Assembly (NCBI RefSeq): GCF_000443995.1
Contig: NZ_AUMC01000006.1
Coordinates: 62,001-126,000 of the forward strand
Source of the DNA: Bacteriovorax sp. BAL6_X
GTDB taxonomy: Bacteria > Bdellovibrionota > Bacteriovoracia > Bacteriovoracales > Bacteriovoracaceae
Direction: 5' to 3'
Length of the DNA: 64,000 bases
Both the position numbers and the translations under genes were made by a program. Under the pieces are notes generated by a model. The model worked only from the letters and a program-made list of their open reading frames with translations, was not told where the DNA came from and did not search any database. Shown here one piece after another: positions 45,370-54,230 of this stretch. Position 1 is the first letter of the stretch. Each line of letters begins with the position of its first letter.

Positions 45370-46728
45370 TTAACTTATAAGGCTTTTTAGTTCGAAGATT
45401 ATTTTTCGATAACTACTTAAGTGAAAAAACTCTTCCAGCTCTGATAGTATCGTATTTAATTTTAATTTCTCACGTCCCTCAATGCATTTAAGTATTTCCA
45501 CAACATACTTTTCAATTACGATAAAACTTATCGCTAGGGGTGAGAGGTTTGACGTATAAACATCAGGGAATCCGACACCATTTAATGAACCATGGTGCTG
45601 GCGAACAATAACATCTATCCCTGTTGGTATTCCCGATATCTCTTGAAGTAAAGTTGTAGTTAGATTGGCATGGTCTAAAACAAGTTTCTTTTCTGAGTCG
45701 CTTAATTCTACCTGTTCCAGATCGTCGAGAGAGTGAATTTTTAAGAGCTTCTCTTCACGTAAAAGAATATCGTGAAAAAAACAAATATAACAAACCTTAT
45801 CCATGGTTTGCTTAAGCTGCTCACCTCTTCCCCATCCAAGGTTTGGAATAATTTGATAGAAGAACAGGCTCGATAGATAATTTCTTTTGAATGCGTAGGT
45901 TGTTTCATTCTCTAAAAGAGAGCGAAGTAAAGTTGAGAGCTTCTTTGAGCTACTTACCGTCTTTGTCATAGCAACAATTGACGTCTTAGCAAGTTTCACT
46001 GTTTGTGGAGTAATTCCAATTTCGTTGAGAAGGTTTTGAGAAATTTCAAAAGTATCACTGCTCACCTCCATCACCTTTTTGTCTTGCTTAAAGGCCTTAA
46101 CGACTTTAGTTAAAGACTGAGACAAGATTTGTCCCATAAGCCTTTCAAAATCTTCCTTTTGTACAAAGAAATGAGTAAGATTATTTTGCTCGTAGCGCCT
46201 TACGATATCCTTATCAAGAACATCGTTAGCATAGATACGCTTTACAAAATGCTCCACACCTGACTTCTTCATTTTAATATAGATATCGCAACATGGATTT
46301 GAAAGTTGATAAAAATTAGCAATTTCAACACTAACAAAGTCAGGCATCTTTAAATGTCTTAGTTCTTCATCTGTAATATTCAGACTCTTTATTAACTGAA
46401 GACTAATATCTCTAAGAGAGAACCTTGATGGTAGAGATACAAAGTTCCCATAATCAATTTCCATCTCTCCTAAAATAACAATAGGCTTTTTAATCGTGTG
46501 ATCGATCATAAAATTTACAAAGTTTTGACCACCAGGGATACTCCTACCTTCATTATCGATATACTTATTTTCGCATATAACTCCATCAAAACTTGCTAAA
46601 TCATCCGCGCTTTTTAAAAAAGATGAGTTCTCAAGACATTCAATCTCAAAAGAGTACTCATTTGTTAAGTACTCTCTTACACTAGACTGAATGCGCTCAT
46701 CTGAATGAATGATTAGCAATTTTCTCAT
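45370..46728 (-). CDS. Pseudo-receiver plus degenerate HD-GYP-like domain protein
   Basis: A 452-residue protein. Residues 1-120 look like a response-regulator receiver (MRKLLIIHSDERIQSSVREY), but the phospho-acceptor position is Glu (DGVICENKY rather than DxVIxD), which could mimic phosphorylation. The C-terminal half resembles HD-GYP cyclic-di-GMP phosphodiesterases: CFFHDILLREE (HD, but not HDIGK) and VRQHHGSLNGVGFPD (HHxxxxGxGFP, with Asp replaced by Asn). It shares one base with the upstream permease stop (TAATG). Enzymatic activity is uncertain. Confidence 0.7.
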   Translation of the reverse strand: MRKLLIIHSDERIQSSVREYLTNEYSFEIECLENSSFLKSADDLASFDGVICENKYIDNEGRSIPGGQNFVNFMIDHTIKKPIVILGEMEIDYGNFVSLPSRFSLRDISLQLIKSLNITDEELRHLKMPDFVSVEIANFYQLSNPCCDIYIKMKKSGVEHFVKRIYANDVLDKDIVRRYEQNNLTHFFVQKEDFERLMGQILSQSLTKVVKAFKQDKKVMEVSSDTFEISQNLLNEIGITPQTVKLAKTSIVAMTKTVSSSKKLSTLLRSLLENETTYAFKRNYLSSLFFYQIIPNLGWGRGEQLKQTMDKVCYICFFHDILLREEKLLKIHSLDDLEQVELSDSEKKLVLDHANLTTTLLQEISGIPTGIDVIVRQHHGSLNGVGFPDVYTSNLSPLAISFIVIEKYVVEILKCIEGREKLKLNTILSELEEFFHLSSYRKIIFELKSLIS

Positions 46729-47552
46729 TAAAACGATCTTCTTTTAAAGATAGAGTTAAAAACAAATCCCCATATCGCTAAACTTGTCACTAAGTGGATT
46801 AGGCCAAAGACAAAACTCTTAACGATATCTATATTTAATTCCGCACCTAAAGATAACATATCTGCAAGTCCTGAAATTTCTCCAATTCTTGGCAGAAGCC
46901 AATAAAAGATAAGCCCAAAGATAGATGAAAGATTAAGTCCCGAAAGAGCTGGATTTCCCGCTTGAATATAAGTGTAAACACCGACTGAGGCAATAACATA
47001 AAAAGATGTCAAAAGTAATGTTCCGATCTTATTAAAGAATAAACTAAAGAAGCAACTAACAAACATAATAATTAATATTTGTAAGAAGTGTGGAATTAGT
47101 GAAGCGGCCATCTTTATCATAGAGAAATCCACTTCCTTAGGAACAAGATCATTAGATATTAAGATAATGATTCCGATAACCAGAATGAATACTAAGTAAA
47201 GAAAACTTAAAAGAGCACCTCCTAGCATTCGATTGATAACGTAAGAAGAGCGATTAATCGGCAGTGCTAAGATTTGGGAAATGACACCACTTTCTAAATC
47301 ACTACGAAAAATATTAGCTGAAACAAGAGCTGCAACAAATTTTGCACTTAAGCTAATAATCCAAATTACGACTGTCATGCTAGCTGTTGCTAGATAAGTG
47401 CTAAAACCCGACTCTTGAATTTCGATTTGTAATAAATTACTTAAAACACTACCTAGATACATAACGACAACAGTCAAAGCAAATAAGAAGATGACAGACT
47501 TATTTCTAACTTCTTTTTCTATTGTATTTTTAATTAACGTAAAATTAAACAT
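46728..47552 (-). CDS. ABC-2 type transporter permease
   Basis: Start at the ATG 47552, inside the end of the ATPase gene; a codon run up to 47564 adds MVKL. The protein is about 274 residues with six membrane helices (SVIFLFALTVVVMYLGS; TVVIWIISLSAKFVAALV; LVFILVIGIIILI and others). It matches ABC-2 membrane subunits that pair with a separate ATPase. The overlap with the ATPase makes translational coupling likely. Substrate unknown; ABC-2 exporters of this layout act on drugs, lipids or have roles in gliding. Confidence 0.85.
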   Translation of the reverse strand: MFNFTLIKNTIEKEVRNKSVIFLFALTVVVMYLGSVLSNLLQIEIQESGFSTYLATASMTVVIWIISLSAKFVAALVSANIFRSDLESGVISQILALPINRSSYVINRMLGGALLSFLYLVFILVIGIIILISNDLVPKEVDFSMIKMAASLIPHFLQILIIMFVSCFFSLFFNKIGTLLLTSFYVIASVGVYTYIQAGNPALSGLNLSSIFGLIFYWLLPRIGEISGLADMLSLGAELNIDIVKSFVFGLIHLVTSLAIWGFVFNSIFKRRSF

Positions 47553-48282
47553 GAGCTTCACCACTTTCTTCTTTTGTTCCTTTCACAAGTGTGTAGAAAC
47601 GATCCTCTAAAGACATACCATCACGAACATCATCAATTAGGCCTTGGGCCTGGACTTTTCCATGATTTAAAATAATAACCTTCTTAGCAAATTTCTCCAC
47701 TTCAGAAAGAATGTGAGAATTGATTAAGATAGTTTTCCCTTTGCTTGAAAGTTCAAGACAAATATCTTTCACATCTTTAATCCCAATTGGATCGAGGCCA
47801 GAGAAAGGCTCATCTAAAATAATTAGATCTTTATCTGCGACAATTGCGATACATAGCCCAACTCGTTGCATTTGTCCTTTGGACAGCTCACTAAGTTTTT
47901 TCTTACCTAACTCTCCGATTGATAGCTTAGCCAAGGCCTCCTTAATTCTATCTTTGACTTGAGACTTTTCAACCTGATGAAATTCAGCAAAGAACTTTAG
48001 TGTTTCCTCAACAGTAAAGTAATTATAAAAAGTGAACTTTTCCGGTAAGTATACAAGTCGAGTGCGTGACATGGGATCATTAGAATCGATATCATAAATT
48101 GAAATTTTTCCACTATCTGCACTAATCAGATTTAACATACACTTTACAAAAGTTGTCTTCCCCGCACCATTTGGTCCTAAAAGAGCAACAACATCACCAT
48201 GCTCTACAGTCAATGAAAAGTCAGATAATGCCTTTTGGTCTCTATAACTTTTAGAGACATTTTCAACGTTAATTACGCTCAT
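47545..48282 (-). CDS. ABC transporter ATP-binding protein
   Basis: A 245-residue ATPase with Walker A GPNGAGKTTFVK, signature LSKGQMQRVGL, Walker B LIILDEPFSGLDP, and switch His in ILINSHILSEVE. The C-terminal extension (MSLEDRFYTLVKG) is typical of ATPases paired with ABC-2 permeases. The permease overlaps the end. The start codon lies 9 bases past the stop of the thioesterase gene, so the genes are in one operon. Confidence 0.93.
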   Translation of the reverse strand: MSVINVENVSKSYRDQKALSDFSLTVEHGDVVALLGPNGAGKTTFVKCMLNLISADSGKISIYDIDSNDPMSRTRLVYLPEKFTFYNYFTVEETLKFFAEFHQVEKSQVKDRIKEALAKLSIGELGKKKLSELSKGQMQRVGLCIAIVADKDLIILDEPFSGLDPIGIKDVKDICLELSSKGKTILINSHILSEVEKFAKKVIILNHGKVQAQGLIDDVRDGMSLEDRFYTLVKGTKEESGEAHV

Positions 48283-48291
48283 ATAAAATCC

Positions 48292-48702
48292 TTATTCTTC
48301 GAGAATTGTTTTAGAATTAATACTACGTGGACGCTTCTGTTCATCAATGGCCACATAAGTAAAGATACCATCAGTTACTCTGACACGCTCAGTATCGAAC
48401 TTACGAATAACCCAAGCCTCAACCTTTACAGCAAGAGATGTATTTCCCTCTCTTACAGTTGAGCAGTAACAACATAGAATATCCCCAACCCCAACAGGTT
48501 GGATGAATTTCATCGCTTCAATTGCGATAGTTGCGGTACGGCCACGACAGCGTTTTCCAGAATAGATTGCGCCGGCGATATCCATTTGCGAAAGAACCCA
48601 ACCTCCAAAGATATCACCATTATGATTTGTATCACAAGGCATTGTTAGTGTACGAACACATAGTTCTCCTACTGGTTCATTTTCACTATTTTTTCCCACC
48701 AT
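48292..48702 (-). CDS. YciA-type acyl-CoA thioesterase
   Basis: A 136-residue hotdog-fold protein. RTLTMPCDTNHNGDIFGGWV is the catalytic segment of the YciA/Them4-like group (TNxxGDIFGGW with Asn/Asp), and IAIEAMKFIQPVGVGDILCC and KVEAWVIRKFD fit the second half. It hydrolyses acyl-CoA to CoA and acid. AAAGGATATAAATG gives the ribosome binding site. It is the first gene of the minus-strand operon with ABC and thiolase genes. Confidence 0.9.
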   Translation of the reverse strand: MVGKNSENEPVGELCVRTLTMPCDTNHNGDIFGGWVLSQMDIAGAIYSGKRCRGRTATIAIEAMKFIQPVGVGDILCCYCSTVREGNTSLAVKVEAWVIRKFDTERVRVTDGIFTYVAIDEQKRPRSINSKTILEE

Positions 48703-48772
48703 TTATATCCTTTTAAAGTCAGTTATAATAATTATAAAATATACCTATAATTTTAAAGTAAAAGGTCATTCA

Positions 48773-49528
48773 ATGCTAGAAAAGAAAGAATTGCAACTCA
48801 TTGGACAAGCTGTAGTAGTCAGCAGTGTTACTGTTGCAGTATTAAATGGAGTGTATCTATCTGGTATTTTCCCACAGGATGGAATAGTTTCAAGATTGCT
48901 AATTCTCCTAGGTGGAAATTTCATCAAAGGCGGCTACATTCAATGGCTAACATATATGGCCTTCTTCTGGTCAATCTCAGAAATTAAAGCATTAAAGGCC
49001 CAAATAAAAGCAGAAAAGTCCTACTTTAAGGCAAACCTGCTGCCTACGGATGAAAAGCACCTACTAATGTCTGACGATGTTGTTCAAATTGGTCAGAAAG
49101 TGAAAGACTTCGAGAAGAAGTACTCAAAGACTCTTTTAACTCAACTCATTAAAAACTCTTGTGCAAAATTTCGTTCAACGAAAAATGTTTCTGAAGTTCT
49201 TGAGGTTATTAATATCATCACTGACCTACATCGTGACAACTCGGAAACTGAACAGTCCAATATACGCTATCTCCTATGGGCGATACCGTCTCTAGGTTTT
49301 ATTGGTACTGTACTTGGTATATCGAGCGCCTTGATGCTTGCAAACTCTAAAGACATGCAGCTAATTACATCAACTCTTGGTGTTGCCTTTGATACAACAC
49401 TTGTTGCACTTATTTTAAGCATCGTTCTGATGTGGCTTTTTCACGACTTACAAAAAGCAACTGATCAATTTCATATGAAAACAAAAGAATATGTTATTGA
49501 AAACCTTGTTAATAAGATTGAGATGTAG
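48773..49528 (+). CDS. MotA/TolQ/ExbB proton-channel-like protein
   Basis: A 251-residue membrane protein with helices near residues 14-32, 37-70 (partly amphipathic) and 165-220. The C-terminal pair YLLWAIPSLGFIGTVLGISS and LGVAFDTTLVALILSIVLMW is the family core, matching TolQ/ExbB/MotA (P-x-x-G-F-x-G-T-V-x-G, then A-F-x-T-T). A cytoplasmic loop lies in the middle. It forms the A-type ring of an ion-driven motor. The next gene, 11 bases on, carries a TolR/MotB-like N-terminus with a vWA domain, so the two make a pair. No TolA, Pal or flagellar genes are near. Confidence 0.85.
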   Translation: MLEKKELQLIGQAVVVSSVTVAVLNGVYLSGIFPQDGIVSRLLILLGGNFIKGGYIQWLTYMAFFWSISEIKALKAQIKAEKSYFKANLLPTDEKHLLMSDDVVQIGQKVKDFEKKYSKTLLTQLIKNSCAKFRSTKNVSEVLEVINIITDLHRDNSETEQSNIRYLLWAIPSLGFIGTVLGISSALMLANSKDMQLITSTLGVAFDTTLVALILSIVLMWLFHDLQKATDQFHMKTKEYVIENLVNKIEM

Positions 49529-49539
49529 GAAAGCAAAGA

Positions 49540-50388
49540 ATGCGCCAAAGAAAGTCTATAGACGTTTTTAATATTTCATTTCTCGATCTACTTTCAGGAG
49601 CACTAGGAGCGGTCATCATCCTCTTTATTGTTGTTCCAAAGAATGAAACTCCTGTTGCTGAAAAGCCAAAAGAAGTATGTGTTGATAATTCTCAGGCACT
49701 CTCTCAATGTGAGAAGCTTGTCAAAGATCAAAAGAAAGTCATCCAAGAACTAACGGCCCAAATTACTCCACCTAAGGCGAAACCAGAACCAAAGCCTGAG
49801 CCAAAACCGACAACTGCTCCTGTTTCTAAAAGCGCTGATGTAGGATTTAACTTTAAAGGCAAACGCGTGGCCTTCCTCATTGATGTTTCGGGCTCAATGG
49901 GGACAGATGATCGCATTGGCCAAGTAAAGGCAGGGCTTAAGATGCTTATTGCCTCAATGGGTAAGGATTACTATGTCGACATTATCTATTTTCCAGGAAA
50001 GAATCGCAGTTCACAATATGCGCTGTGGGGTGTTTTACAAGACCTTAGGGACCTAAAGATAAAAGAAGAGGTTTACGAATTTCTAGCAAGTCTAAAACCC
50101 TATGGTGCGACTCCAACGAGGGCGGCGCTTAAGTATGTCATTGACCAATATCCACAACTTACTGATATAGTTCTCCTTAGTGATGGTTCCCCGACAAAGT
50201 CTGGGCGAACGACCTCACCGGATAATATCGACGATATTGTTAGGGATATCACTACAAAGAACAATCTTAGAAAAGTACAAATTAATGCCATTGGAGTTGG
50301 GGCAAAGAACTTCAGTAAGTCTTCGGATTTATATCAATTTTTGAAGAATTTAACAGATGCCAATAACGGTTTTTTCTATGGCTTCTAA
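49540..50388 (+). CDS. Membrane-anchored vWA-domain protein, motor B-subunit-like
   Basis: A 282-residue protein. Residues 8-33 (DVFNISFLDLLSGALGAVII, then LFIVV) form one helix with an Asp near its start, laid out like ExbD, TolR and MotB, where that Asp carries protons. Next is a cytoplasmic-to-periplasmic linker rich in Lys, Pro and Glu (PPKAKPEPKPEPKPTTAP). Residues 108-282 are a von Willebrand A domain with a full MIDAS: DVSGSM, Thr in GATPTRAAL, and LLSDGSPT. It is 11 bases after the channel gene. The combination suggests a rotary or force-transducing partner with a vWA domain in place of peptidoglycan binding. Confidence 0.8.
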   Translation: MRQRKSIDVFNISFLDLLSGALGAVIILFIVVPKNETPVAEKPKEVCVDNSQALSQCEKLVKDQKKVIQELTAQITPPKAKPEPKPEPKPTTAPVSKSADVGFNFKGKRVAFLIDVSGSMGTDDRIGQVKAGLKMLIASMGKDYYVDIIYFPGKNRSSQYALWGVLQDLRDLKIKEEVYEFLASLKPYGATPTRAALKYVIDQYPQLTDIVLLSDGSPTKSGRTTSPDNIDDIVRDITTKNNLRKVQINAIGVGAKNFSKSSDLYQFLKNLTDANNGFFYGF

Positions 50389-50509
50389 AGTTGGCGAAAT
50401 TTACGGATTTTGACAACTATAGTTTTTATAGTAATTCTCGCCTAAGTTACTGATTTAACAGGAATACTTACTCCACTACTTCAGCGACTTATCCAAAATT
50501 GTCATAATA

Positions 50510-51733
50510 GTGTCAATGAACATGGCACTTAAACCAACATTTCGTCAGCACATTGTAAGAGTTTTGTTAAGAGCAAGCTTTTCGCTACTCTTTTTTGCAG
50601 CAACTCTCCTATTTACTTCATGTGCTGGGCCAATGAATCCATTCGGAAGTGAAACTCTTTCAATTATTAATGATGGAGATAGTTTCGAAAATCTAGAGGC
50701 GTTTACTAATATCTTAGATACTCATCTAAACTTCGATAACGTTGGAACGAGTACAATAGGTATCGAATTTTTTCCAAAGAAACAAAATCGTCACACTATT
50801 TATGATCTTTATATTAAGATCAATTCAACTCGTGGAAAACTTAATTCTGAAAATATCGTAATATTTTGGAATGGTAAAAATATTACTTCTAGTTTTAAAA
50901 ATAATAATAAAGTCATTTATGAAGACGACCAAAATATTATCTACAAGATTAACCGCCTAAGTCTTCCAGCAAGGCTTGAGACTGATATAAAAATTGGCTA
51001 TCAATACCGTGGAGAGATTCGCTCGCTCTATCGTTATGAAGAGCCTTCATGTAAACAATTTACGGCGGCCAATAACAAAACAACAATCACAACAACTGAT
51101 CCATTCAATGTAAAATCGAGCTTTATTGATCTAGTAAAAAAAGAAGCATCTAAAGTCCATACTAATCCCTCAATGCTACTTGGTATTATTGCCCAGGAGT
51201 CTGGTTTTAACTATCGTTCTGTAAGTTCAGCAAAAGCAATTGGCCTTACACAAGTTACCGATGCAGCTAGCCAGCACGTAATAAAGAAATATGACACATG
51301 GAAAGTTGATAAGAGAATTGAAAAACTTCCATATGGACTAGTAAAGTTTATGGTTAGATCGGGGAAGATTAATCATCAAAATGACTGGCGACTTAATCGA
51401 AAAAAATCTGTGATAGGTGGACTCGAGTATATTGAATACCTAAAGAAGTATTGGCGTGGCAATATTGACCTTGTTCAAAAGTCATATCCAAAAATCAAAA
51501 ACCTTAAGACATTTGAGAAAAGCCAACTCTTTACAGACCTGATCCTTGCTAGCTACAACTCTGGTCCATTTAGAGTAAAGTCTCAATTAATAAAACTAGA
51601 GACTGACTGGCGTAACTCTGATCGCCTTCAAGAAGCAAAGAATTATATTAATCGCGTAAATAGTTATTGTTATCACTTTACACAAAATGACACTCAAGGA
51701 GTCATCAATGAAGATCAAGCCATTAATCTTTAA
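50510..51733 (+). CDS. Lytic transglycosylase-domain lipoprotein (SLT family)
   Basis: A 407-residue protein opening with GTG or the nearby ATGs (MSMNMALKPTFRQ); no ribosome binding site is clear, so the exact start is uncertain. A lipoprotein signal follows (SLLFFAATLLFTSCAG). Residues 210-400 are an SLT domain: VKKEASKVHTNPSMLLGIIA, QESGFNYRSVSSAKAIGLTQV with the catalytic Glu in QESGFN, and ILASYNSGPFRVKSQL (the AYNSG-like motif). It cleaves peptidoglycan by forming anhydromuramic ends, acting at the outer-membrane inner face. The N-terminal 200 residues are not a domain I recognise. Its 3' end overlaps the PilZ gene by 26 bases. Confidence 0.85.
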   Translation: MSMNMALKPTFRQHIVRVLLRASFSLLFFAATLLFTSCAGPMNPFGSETLSIINDGDSFENLEAFTNILDTHLNFDNVGTSTIGIEFFPKKQNRHTIYDLYIKINSTRGKLNSENIVIFWNGKNITSSFKNNNKVIYEDDQNIIYKINRLSLPARLETDIKIGYQYRGEIRSLYRYEEPSCKQFTAANNKTTITTTDPFNVKSSFIDLVKKEASKVHTNPSMLLGIIAQESGFNYRSVSSAKAIGLTQVTDAASQHVIKKYDTWKVDKRIEKLPYGLVKFMVRSGKINHQNDWRLNRKKSVIGGLEYIEYLKKYWRGNIDLVQKSYPKIKNLKTFEKSQLFTDLILASYNSGPFRVKSQLIKLETDWRNSDRLQEAKNYINRVNSYCYHFTQNDTQGVINEDQAINL

Positions 51734-52475
51734 TATTTATGCATTTGTATTTATTGCAATTGCAGTTAGTATCCCAATTCAAGTCATGTTCCTCTATGGA
51801 CATGGTGCAACTGATATTGGTGCCATCTGGTCAAAAATGACTGTCTTTAACTTTATGGTTATGGCCTCTTGTTTTCTTAATGCTTACTTTTCATTTACAG
51901 CACAAGATGACATCAAGTGGAGCTTTCCATTATCGATTGGCTTCGTTTGTTTAAATAATTCAATTGTCTTAGTTTATGGAAATGACTTTGAAGCTGCTTC
52001 AGTTATTCTATCAACTTTTGCCTATATCCTTATGACTTCATACTTCATTTTGAGTCATGAAACGAATGTTATTAACTCACCTGCTGCTCAGTGGTGGAAA
52101 ACAGCAATTCGCTACCAAGCGCCACTTCCAACAAAGGTATCTTCAACAGATATTCCAATTAACCTTGGTGAAACATTTGATATCTCTAGAACAGGTGCCT
52201 ATATTTCATATAATACACCAACACAGAAAGATATCTTTAATTGTGGAGATACTTTTACTTTCAATATCGGAACAGATTTAGAACTAAAGGCCAAGGTCGT
52301 TAGAAAATCGAATGCTGTCGGACGCTACCCAGAAGGAATGGGGGTACAGTTTGTCGAACTTGGTGTTGCTGAAAGACTTCAATTAGAGAAGCTTTTAACA
52401 AGCCTTAGGCAAAGTGTAGATGAAGAAAATATGGATAGTGATAACGATTACGAAGAGTACAATAACGCTGCTTAG
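51708..52475 (+). CDS. PilZ-domain membrane protein
   Basis: ATG at 51708 has AAGGAG six bases before it. Four helices occupy residues 5-115. A PilZ domain follows: RYQAPLPTKVSSTDIPINLG, ETFDISRTGAYISYNTP and GDTFTFNIGTDLELKAKVVR, ending MGVQFVELG. The RxxxR cyclic-di-GMP site is not obvious (RYQAP lacks the second Arg), though DISRTGAYI resembles the D-x-S-x-x-G part. It is probably a membrane-bound cyclic-di-GMP-related regulator. The overlap with the lytic transglycosylase implies coupled expression. A terminator follows. Confidence 0.82.
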   Translation: MKIKPLIFNIYAFVFIAIAVSIPIQVMFLYGHGATDIGAIWSKMTVFNFMVMASCFLNAYFSFTAQDDIKWSFPLSIGFVCLNNSIVLVYGNDFEAASVILSTFAYILMTSYFILSHETNVINSPAAQWWKTAIRYQAPLPTKVSSTDIPINLGETFDISRTGAYISYNTPTQKDIFNCGDTFTFNIGTDLELKAKVVRKSNAVGRYPEGMGVQFVELGVAERLQLEKLLTSLRQSVDEENMDSDNDYEEYNNAA

Positions 52476-52520
52476 TCGTCCCCTAAGTAGCTTAAATAAC
52501 GAGCTTGATTCTTAAATTGG

Positions 52521-52548
52521 CAGGGCCTCACTGAGGTCCTGTTTTTTT
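52521..52548 (+). terminator. Rho-independent terminator
   Basis: CAGGGCCTCA (52521-52530) pairs with TGAGGTCCTG (52532-52541) through a short loop and one G-U pair; seven T's follow. It ends the lytic transglycosylase/PilZ transcript. Confidence 0.9.
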
Positions 52549-52619
52549 ATTGGGACGATATTTCAAGTAAATTCTACAATCTCCTACCATCTGTTCATGA
52601 ATTACCGTAAAAGCAAAGT

Positions 52620-53402
52620 ATGTTACGTACAACTCTAATAATTTTAACTACATCACTAACAGTGGCCCAACCAATTGACCTCAAGGCCAATGGAGACACT
52701 GGCCAACAAATCAACCAAACGGAATTCAGAAAGCGTTTATCTGCGCTTTTGAAAAAGCAAAAGCGAACACTCTACTATAAAACGGCAAGACTTTATCTAT
52801 TTAATAATATCTACGCTTATAATAAAAACGGCTCTGAGAACAAATATCTAAAAGATTTATACTGTGGAAAAGAATACGAAAATAATGTTGATATTCACTT
52901 AGATCAAGAGAACCTTCCTGATGGAAATATCATCAATACTGAACATACGTGGCCAAAATCTCGTTTCTTCGAATACGGAGACTCTGTAGAGCACGGAAAG
53001 AATGAGTATGACGATATGGTTGCAGATATGCACCACCTCTTTCCAACGGACTCCTTTGTTAATAGCATGAGGGCCTCATACCACTATGGAGAAGTTGATG
53101 AAAATAAGCTTCAAGACTGTGGGCAGTCAAAGTTTGGAAAGAATAAAAAGTACCCAACAATGCCTTTATTCGAGCCACCAAATGAAGTCAAGGGCGATAT
53201 CGCTCGTGGCCTATTCTACTTTGCTGTCACATATGAGCTTCCGATCAATGATCGTGAAGAAGAATTTCTAAGAGCATGGGATAAGTTAGACCCAGTATCA
53301 GAATTTGAAAAGTTTAGAAATGATGAAGTAGAAAAGTATCAGGGCAACCGTAATCCATTTATCGATTACCCTGAACTAATTGATTTGCTAACGGACCTTT
53401 AA
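52620..53402 (+). CDS. Secreted endonuclease I family nuclease
   Basis: A 260-residue protein with a short signal peptide (MLRTTLIILTTSLTVAQP). It matches the endonuclease I (EndA/NucM) family: NTEHTWPKSRFFEYGDS near residues 104-120 with the His-Gly-like metal/His site, and DMHHLFPTDSFVNSMRA near residues 137-153 as the second conserved block. It cuts DNA or RNA outside the cytoplasm. Its stop is directly adjacent to the stop of the convergent DsbA-like gene. Prey-DNA digestion is a plausible role, inferred only from the organism. Confidence 0.9.
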   Translation: MLRTTLIILTTSLTVAQPIDLKANGDTGQQINQTEFRKRLSALLKKQKRTLYYKTARLYLFNNIYAYNKNGSENKYLKDLYCGKEYENNVDIHLDQENLPDGNIINTEHTWPKSRFFEYGDSVEHGKNEYDDMVADMHHLFPTDSFVNSMRASYHYGEVDENKLQDCGQSKFGKNKKYPTMPLFEPPNEVKGDIARGLFYFAVTYELPINDREEEFLRAWDKLDPVSEFEKFRNDEVEKYQGNRNPFIDYPELIDLLTDL

Positions 53403-54230
53403 TTATTTGATCTTTGCCATTTCACTTGCTGGATCCTTAGAGTTTCCATTCAAGCGACGGTCTAAGATCATTTTAAAATGAGAATAAGGGTATGCGCCCT
53501 TAACTGGAACACCGGCCACGACAAAACCAGGAGTGCCACTAAAGCCCAGTTTATTTGCACTTGCTACGTCCGCAGCAATCTTATTTTCAACGCGTTTAGA
53601 ATTTACGAGTCGTTTAATTTTGTTAACATCTAACTTCATCTCTTTAACTAAGCTAATAAAGTACTTCTCACCATGGCGAACCTTATTTTGATTCTTCAAA
53701 ATAGTCTCATGAAAATCAAATGCCTTTTGTCCATACTCAATTCGAATGGCCTCATAGTACTTGGCCGCAAGTCTAGCATTAGGGTGAATAGAATCAATAG
53801 GTAGATGACGATAGACAAAAGCAACGTCATCCTTATAATCATCAAGAACCTGCTTAACAGTCTCTAGAGCGCGATAACAGAATGGACACTGAAAATCAGA
53901 GTATTCATAAATAATAACTTTTGCATTCGGATTACCAATAATTAAGTCTTCGCTGTGTTTTTCAACTTCAATTGGATTTTTAAAAGCTGCTTCTAAAATC
54001 TCTTGCTCTTTCTTATTGCGATCTTCAAGGGCCTTCTCTCTCATTTGAGAGGCCATCTTCTGAAGTGTTTCCATGAACAGTTGTGGATTTTTTTTCATGA
54101 CTTCAGTTAAGATTTCAGGATTCTTCTCCAATGTTTTTTGAAGATCACTTGCTGATTGCTTTGACTGGCAAGATGCCAAGAATAGCGCAATAAAGGCAAA
54201 AAGAAATGGAATGGTTAATCGCTTAGACAT
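53403..54230 (-). CDS. DsbA-family thioredoxin-fold lipoprotein
   Basis: A 275-residue lipoprotein (FALIALFLASC-type lipobox, LASCQSK). Residues 28-85 are a charged helical segment of repeated KNPxxxxE/M-type phrases (LEKNPEILTEVMKKNPQLFM). From residue 95 a DsbA/thioredoxin-like fold follows with the redox motif FQCPFCYRAL and the cis-Pro segment GFSGTPGFVVAG. It acts as a periplasmic disulfide oxidase or isomerase, like BdbD/DsbA-type lipoproteins. No DsbB-type gene is near. The rich set of Cys proteins in the window are possible clients. Confidence 0.9.
   Translation of the reverse strand: MSKRLTIPFLFAFIALFLASCQSKQSASDLQKTLEKNPEILTEVMKKNPQLFMETLQKMASQMREKALEDRNKKEQEILEAAFKNPIEVEKHSEDLIIGNPNAKVIIYEYSDFQCPFCYRALETVKQVLDDYKDDVAFVYRHLPIDSIHPNARLAAKYYEAIRIEYGQKAFDFHETILKNQNKVRHGEKYFISLVKEMKLDVNKIKRLVNSKRVENKIAADVASANKLGFSGTPGFVVAGVPVKGAYPYSHFKMILDRRLNGNSKDPASEMAKIK

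Follow-up and report, generated by a model that had tools for sequence, protein, structure and literature searches.

A two-gene pair in the window (the whole 64,000-nucleotide stretch of DNA that was analysed) encodes a MotA/TolQ/ExbB-type A subunit and a B subunit in which a membrane helix and a linker carry a von Willebrand A (vWA) domain; the pair is probably an ion-driven inner-membrane motor of the 5:2 type, whose B dimer would present the vWA domain so as to grip a periplasmic or envelope partner via its MIDAS metal. Direct support covers the conserved pairing, the family and fold of A, the vWA domain with its intact MIDAS, the invariant functional residues, an A clade of its own and the exchange of B ends. 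The core idea, a vWA-ended stator B subunit with a TolQ-like A subunit, is already published as a prediction (PMC12204202); what appears to be new is the separate A clade, the exchanged periplasmic ends and the phospho-signalling neighbours found in relatives.

The A and B subunits

A is a 251 aa protein (48773..49528, + strand) assigned by Pfam and its AlphaFold model; PF01618 (MotA_ExbB) matches residues 125-235, in the TM3-TM4 core, with an E-value of 9.5e-10 and 38.7 bits against a cut-off of 22.9. The AlphaFold2 model has a mean pLDDT of 88 and retrieves ExbB and TolQ chains through Foldseek with a best E of 3e-3 at a probability of 1.00, E-values that are weak. When the model is re-aligned to TolQ 8vlw_B, a Z of 15.1 is obtained over 201 residues with an rmsd of 3.0; ExbB follows at 13.8, ZorA at 11.9 and MotA/PomA at about 10, with unrelated structures at or below about 10, and helical proteins can reach middling Z by chance. 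The top structures in this comparison, in whose list GldL does not appear, all belong to the MotA/TolQ/ExbB family. The match to TolQ begins at about residue 36 and is preceded by an additional N-terminal helix (residues 4-29), giving A about four TM helices, the last of which ends at residue 246 in the model.

Thr179 in TM3 (GFIGT; 49307..49309, + strand) and Asp207-Thr208-Thr209 in TM4 (AFDTT signature; 49391..49399, + strand) do not vary among 57 A proteins. In a profile alignment of A with PomA, Thr179, Thr208 and Thr209 fall on T158, T185 and T186, residues that line the PomA ion path. Asp207 (49391-49393) sits beside both pore Thr residues, at a position where TolQ and ExbB have a hydrophobic residue.

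B is a 282 aa protein (49540..50388, + strand) whose layout of TM helix, linker and vWA domain is given by the ORF, Pfam and an AlphaFold model with a mean pLDDT of 82.7. The N-terminal sequence, FNISFLDLLSGALGAVIIL, contains a helix with the conserved Asp16 and lacks an SHLS motif. The membrane helix itself (residues 12-31, ISFLDLLSGALGAVIILFIV; 49573..49632, + strand) is delimited by AlphaFold, hydropathy and alignment conservation, with the hydropathy maximum of B at residues 14-32; as a monomer it is modelled with modest confidence, in pLDDT blocks of 67-68 and with 48 at its end. MRQRK precedes this helix, suggesting an N-in orientation that would place the vWA domain in the periplasm. 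Asp16 (49585..49587, + strand) is the candidate ion-carrying residue; it is invariant in 52 homologues and is found in B proteins of the vWA, OmpA and X types alike. A helix at residues 51-74 and a Pro/Lys/Glu linker to residue 107 follow (49690..49860, + strand; AlphaFold model); the linker, PKAKPEPKPEPKP, lies between helix and vWA domain and is disordered in the model, and the helix-to-vWA distance among homologues ranges from 30 to 154 residues with a median of 76.

The vWA domain (residues 108-282; 49861..50385, + strand) is modelled with pLDDT mostly above 90. Three vWA models of Pfam match B at E 7e-9 to 3e-7 (VWA_3 7e-9, VWA_2 9e-9); nothing else passes the Pfam threshold, and an OmpA, ExbD or TonB domain is not found by it. 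The nearest fold is that of the inter-alpha-trypsin-inhibitor vWA domain (ITIH1 6fpy, Foldseek E 7e-11; sequence profile E 1e-8). The MIDAS is complete, comprising the D115-x-S117-x-S119 motif (49882..49896), Thr191 (50110..50112) and Asp215 (50182..50184), all on the + strand, and its five residues are, like Asp16, invariant in the 52 vWA-type B proteins. B ends in GFFYGF (50368-50385); homologues end in GFF-V/Y/F-GF, with F as the last residue in 48 of 52, and this end may be the final vWA strand or a recognised C-terminus. No NCBIfam equivalog was found for A or B. The reading of both genes in the earlier note is thus borne out: the two ORFs lie where it had placed them, the first is a MotA/TolQ/ExbB-type A subunit by PF01618 and the TolQ match, and the second joins an Asp-bearing helix through a Pro/Lys/Glu linker to a vWA domain whose MIDAS is intact, the usual peptidoglycan-binding or TonB part being missing from it.

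The pore Thr residues and Asp16 would suit an ion path in a gated ion channel as well, in which ligand binding by B opens or closes an ion leak through A, and sequence cannot separate such a channel from a motor; the channel is nevertheless improbable, as the characterised relatives MotAB, TolQR, ExbBD, ZorAB and GldLM are described as 5:2 motors. For relatives with this architecture, motors of the 5:2 type are described in PMC9389320 and PMC12505986.

Conservation of the pair and its place among stators

A and B are separate intact ORFs on the + strand, 11 bp apart. The earlier note had proposed a search of genomes for the pairing, and this finds it conserved, so that the note's refuting condition of a pair not kept elsewhere is not borne out: B is strong in 22 of 97 relatives and A is strong in those same 22 (Fisher p 3e-22, with kinship between genomes ignored), the two genes being adjacent in all 22; in G038 the A gene carries an in-frame stop. 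A single-sequence search of genome contigs with B gave no match; the contigs scanned with a B alignment gave 61 loci, mostly from Bacteriovoracaceae (close genomes being Halobacteriovorax and Bacteriovorax sp. DB6_IX and MedPE-SWde, which puts the window genome in the Bacteriovoracaceae/Halobacteriovoraceae), with 11 from or near Bacteroidota. The spacing of A and B was compared in 53 loci from the wider scan. It is -4 bp in 25 of them and -1 bp in 11, so stop and start mostly overlap, a pattern suggestive of translational coupling. There is one B gene in every locus inspected and no heterologous vWA pair. A promoter and terminator scan stays near shuffle levels and is uninformative. A single case of A with no adjacent B was seen, locus L181 (G054:C36, 8353-9198), a lone second A of the same clade in a genome that also has the full pair.

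The A/B interaction is so far a predicted one, which would leave room for two functionally unrelated neighbours, a TolQ-like protein and a membrane-anchored vWA protein; this is very improbable given the co-occurrence in 22 of 22 genomes, the adjacency and overlap of the genes, the invariant Asp in the B helix, and the persistence of the pairing in loci where B has a different C-terminal domain.

The pair is missing from 37 of the 59 genomes of its own family, which argues against a core predation machine, and relatives occur in Bacteroidota, with the wider clade also represented on a Rhizobium plasmid. A core or predator-specific machine was rejected as the main reading on these grounds; the idea that the pair drives an envelope machine specific to predators is therefore unlikely, its relatives belonging in part to groups not known as predators. 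Phage or plasmid cargo was also rejected, as B has no match in viral contigs or plasmids.

The window genome (about 3.23 Mb in 10 contigs) has, elsewhere, a TolQR set with a TolA-like gene, an ExbBD set, an AglRQS-like set (L003) and two MotAB sets, these assignments being made by eye on sequence and gene order. Among the neighbours around 46728-54230 there is no other B subunit and no tolR or exbD gene; with these other sets present elsewhere, the pair is a separate system, the sixth or an additional stator system of the genome. In a tree of 36 A subunits that includes eight reference stators, one branch with a support of 97/99 against all eight, whose long branches are a caveat, unites the window family, its kin from Bacteroidota and from other Bdellovibrionota, the Rhizobium plasmid protein and two cyanobacterial plasmid proteins. 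TM4 in this clade reads AF(D/N)TT or SFD-T, while TolQ and ExbB have EAL(I/L)AT. The clade is rare in Bacteroidota: the seed genome alone matched in 198 and in 251 genomes of the sampled groups, and in one order 4 of 241 genomes matched, the seed included.

The two cyanobacterial plasmid loci, L173 and L174, encode a longer A of the same clade and, after it, two small B-like proteins, each with a membrane helix at its N-terminus; one of the loci adjoins type III-B CRISPR genes and a viperin gene, and they are possibly a Zorya-like defence relative. For the window pair a defence system was considered and rejected, as PADLOC finds only weak matches of A to ZorA and none for B, and there are no defence neighbours beside the pair.

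Periplasmic ends and gene neighbours

The N-terminal block of B is kept across the clade, roughly as IN.FS.S.(L/I)DL(L/F)(S/A).(A/G)(L/M)G with the Asp conserved, and is followed by one of three ends: a vWA domain (Bacteriovoracaceae and some Bacteroidota), an OmpA domain (in loci of the L177/L178 type, matched by Pfam in L178 at E 7e-10), or a domain outside all Pfam models, marked by the motif DVDLxVxxPxG...GPGxE.W...PG.Y. Pfam searches up to E 10 on three C-termini of this last type gave nothing for two and a poor match for the third; the domain may resemble YfaP/DUF2135. On the starred branches of the tree the vWA label must have changed three or more times, and the vWA loci L111 and L116 are sister (100/99) to the non-vWA loci L122 and L125, with a downstream operon of the same type. 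Exchange of the end on a common A clade and B helix is as expected if the helix and A form the motor and the end is exchangeable. The DVDLxVxxPxG...GPGxE domain recurs on stator B proteins of several phyla (L122, L124, L125, L127, L172, L176, L179, L180).

Eleven Bacteroidota loci lie in a cluster with Ser/Thr kinases. Most of these clusters also encode a zinc-ribbon protein whose C-terminus is FHA-like, together with an FHA-trypsin protein and a PP2C phosphatase. Of the 14 Bacteroidota loci inspected, 11 thus have kinase, FHA or PP2C genes beside A/B, a biased proportion, the first 11 loci having come from a peptide pattern; three further loci, which come from the order that includes the Algoriphagus seed, pair A with a non-vWA B and have a zinc-ribbon neighbour only, with no kinase, PP2C or FHA gene. 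The gene order on the Rhizobium leguminosarum plasmid is PP2C-FHA-A-B, and an FHA gene stands directly before A in three Bdellovibrionota loci (L178, L060 and L175; Pfam-checked for L178 only). The Bacteriovoracaceae pairs stand alone with flanks conserved within sub-lineages only: none of about 50 vWA loci from this family, the window pair included, has a member of the kinase/PP2C/FHA neighbour clusters; beside the window pair, phospho-signalling partners were looked for and none was seen. Genes of the FHA, PP2C and kinase types do occur elsewhere in the window genome, away from the pair. The link is frequent, not general. These neighbours suggest a possible way of controlling such motors that is apparently undescribed, no report of motors of such type linked to FHA/PP2C/kinase genes having been found in the open-access literature; the TerY-P triad may be a comparison.

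It is possible, though tentative, that the family is a modular motor clade, in which a common A ring and B helix drive interchangeable ends (vWA, OmpA or DVDL/GPG). In many members Ser/Thr phosphorylation would then act as a switch of the motor or receive its signal, with FHA, PP2C and kinase proteins as the partners involved. The same neighbours in Bacteroidota, on the Rhizobium plasmid and in the three Bdellovibrionota loci, together with the genes elsewhere in the window genome, would also fit a complex that is mainly a sensor; here the vWA domain would bind a periplasmic ligand or read envelope strain, the complex would change state, and a signal would be passed inside (in relatives to FHA, Ser/Thr kinase and PP2C partners) rather than mechanical work being done. 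Zorya presumably works with its cytosolic partners in such a manner. A sensor is rather unlikely, however, as the Bacteriovoracaceae vWA loci and three of the Bacteroidota loci are without those neighbours, A at 251 aa has no long ZorA-like cytosolic tail, and a working motor under phosphorylation control would explain the neighbours equally well.

At G000:C3:481729-483118 (L199/L202) the genes for a Ser/Thr kinase and a PP2C-type phosphatase overlap; the PomAB-like stator genes of that genome (C3:475938-479291) are a few kb away.

The proposed motor and known systems

In the favoured reading as a motor, five A subunits would form a ring in the inner membrane with two B helices in its pore, Asp16 facing Thr179, Thr208 and Thr209 of A; ion flow would turn or tilt the B pair relative to A. 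B would not be anchored to peptidoglycan; rather, its vWA domain would use the MIDAS metal to grip a partner that is periplasmic, peptidoglycan-associated or an outer-membrane protein, and the output would be a pull or twist on the partner driven by ion flow, or a partner load that is read as a change in the motor. We infer the 5:2 assembly, the flow of ions, the rotation, the ligand and the role in the cell; the motor is favoured because of the family and fold of A, the invariant Thr residues, Asp16 and MIDAS, the co-occurrence, the end exchange and the published AF3 models, and it is weakened by the modest confidence of the B helix, the weak Foldseek E-values for A, the single B gene against the two that predominate in the published set and the lone A of L181. 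The earlier note had proposed a stator with a metal-dependent adhesion end; the stator-type pair with a MIDAS vWA domain stands and is conserved, however a cell-surface adhesin is doubtful and the ligand is probably periplasmic, as B is anchored in the inner membrane and its linker from helix to vWA domain is as short as 30 residues in some homologues. At so short a distance the vWA domain has to stay close to the inner membrane, which speaks against every member being a surface adhesin.

Contrary to the suggestion in the earlier note, the pair does not stand apart from all described systems, as Asp-bearing transpore-helix vWA (TPH-vWA) proteins are predicted to form the B dimer in TolQ-like pentamers, with AF3 models of the TPH-vWA/TolQ complexes (PMC12204202; Mol Biol Evol 2025, msaf138, Fig. 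4c-d); no function is stated there for the vWA transducers. That set was seeded on Idiomarina loihiensis and is mainly from Proteobacteria and Verrucomicrobia, with two different vWA genes predominant but not strict. The window pair resembles it in having a vWA gene directly beside a tolQ-like gene, no tolR or exbD nearby and a helix Asp without SHLS; it differs, the Idiomarina proteins being compared by description only, in its single B gene, its occurrence in Bdellovibrionota and Bacteroidota, its distinct A clade, its swapped C-termini and the phospho-signalling neighbours of its relatives.

TolQR and ExbBD share with the pair the A fold (Z 15.1/13.8), the helix Asp and the TM3 GT motif; however, the window B ends in a vWA domain instead of the small ExbD/TolR fold, and A stands apart in the tree (97/99). 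The aligned PomA Thr residues and a B N-terminus resembling MotB (KIAYADFMTAMMAFFLV) recall MotAB and PomAB, yet B lacks the OmpA-like peptidoglycan-binding domain and A is not closely similar outside TM3-TM4. A also matches ZorA weakly (PADLOC E 9e-6; Z 11.9), but is without the long cytosolic tail of ZorA, and no further Zorya-type genes lie beside the pair. The vWA domain of CglB belongs to a separate surface lipoprotein, whereas that of the window is part of the B subunit, and the AglRQS arrangement of one A with two ExbD-like B genes is not seen at the pair. AglRQS/Glt-CglB of Myxococcus gliding, to the extent that it is presented through its citation in PMC12204202 (Islam 2023), combines a TolQ/MotA-type motor with the vWA protein CglB. 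Bd0875, a MIDAS adhesin of Bdellovibrio with a lipobox, surface location and cap domain (PMC11003981), is likewise a vWA/MIDAS protein, in a related predator; equivalence was rejected, as this lipobox surface protein with its cap domain is no stator subunit.

If the motor reading is true, stator units would be a general engine with varied periplasmic grips, vWA/MIDAS among them; domain exchange on one motor clade would provide natural experiments on what the motor pulls, and the lone two-gene pairs of Halobacteriovorax-type bacteria would be a simple test setting.

On the strand of the pair and downstream of it (50510-52475) are two overlapping genes, the first for a lipoprotein-like lytic transglycosylase (SLT) and the second for a PilZ-domain protein; a relative of the first of these (cluster 44) is present in a few close genomes only. 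In several marine genomes (L067, L068, L072, L083 and L110) genes for a MoxR-type ATPase-like protein and a transglutaminase-like membrane protein, recognised by eye, lie near the pair on the opposite strand.
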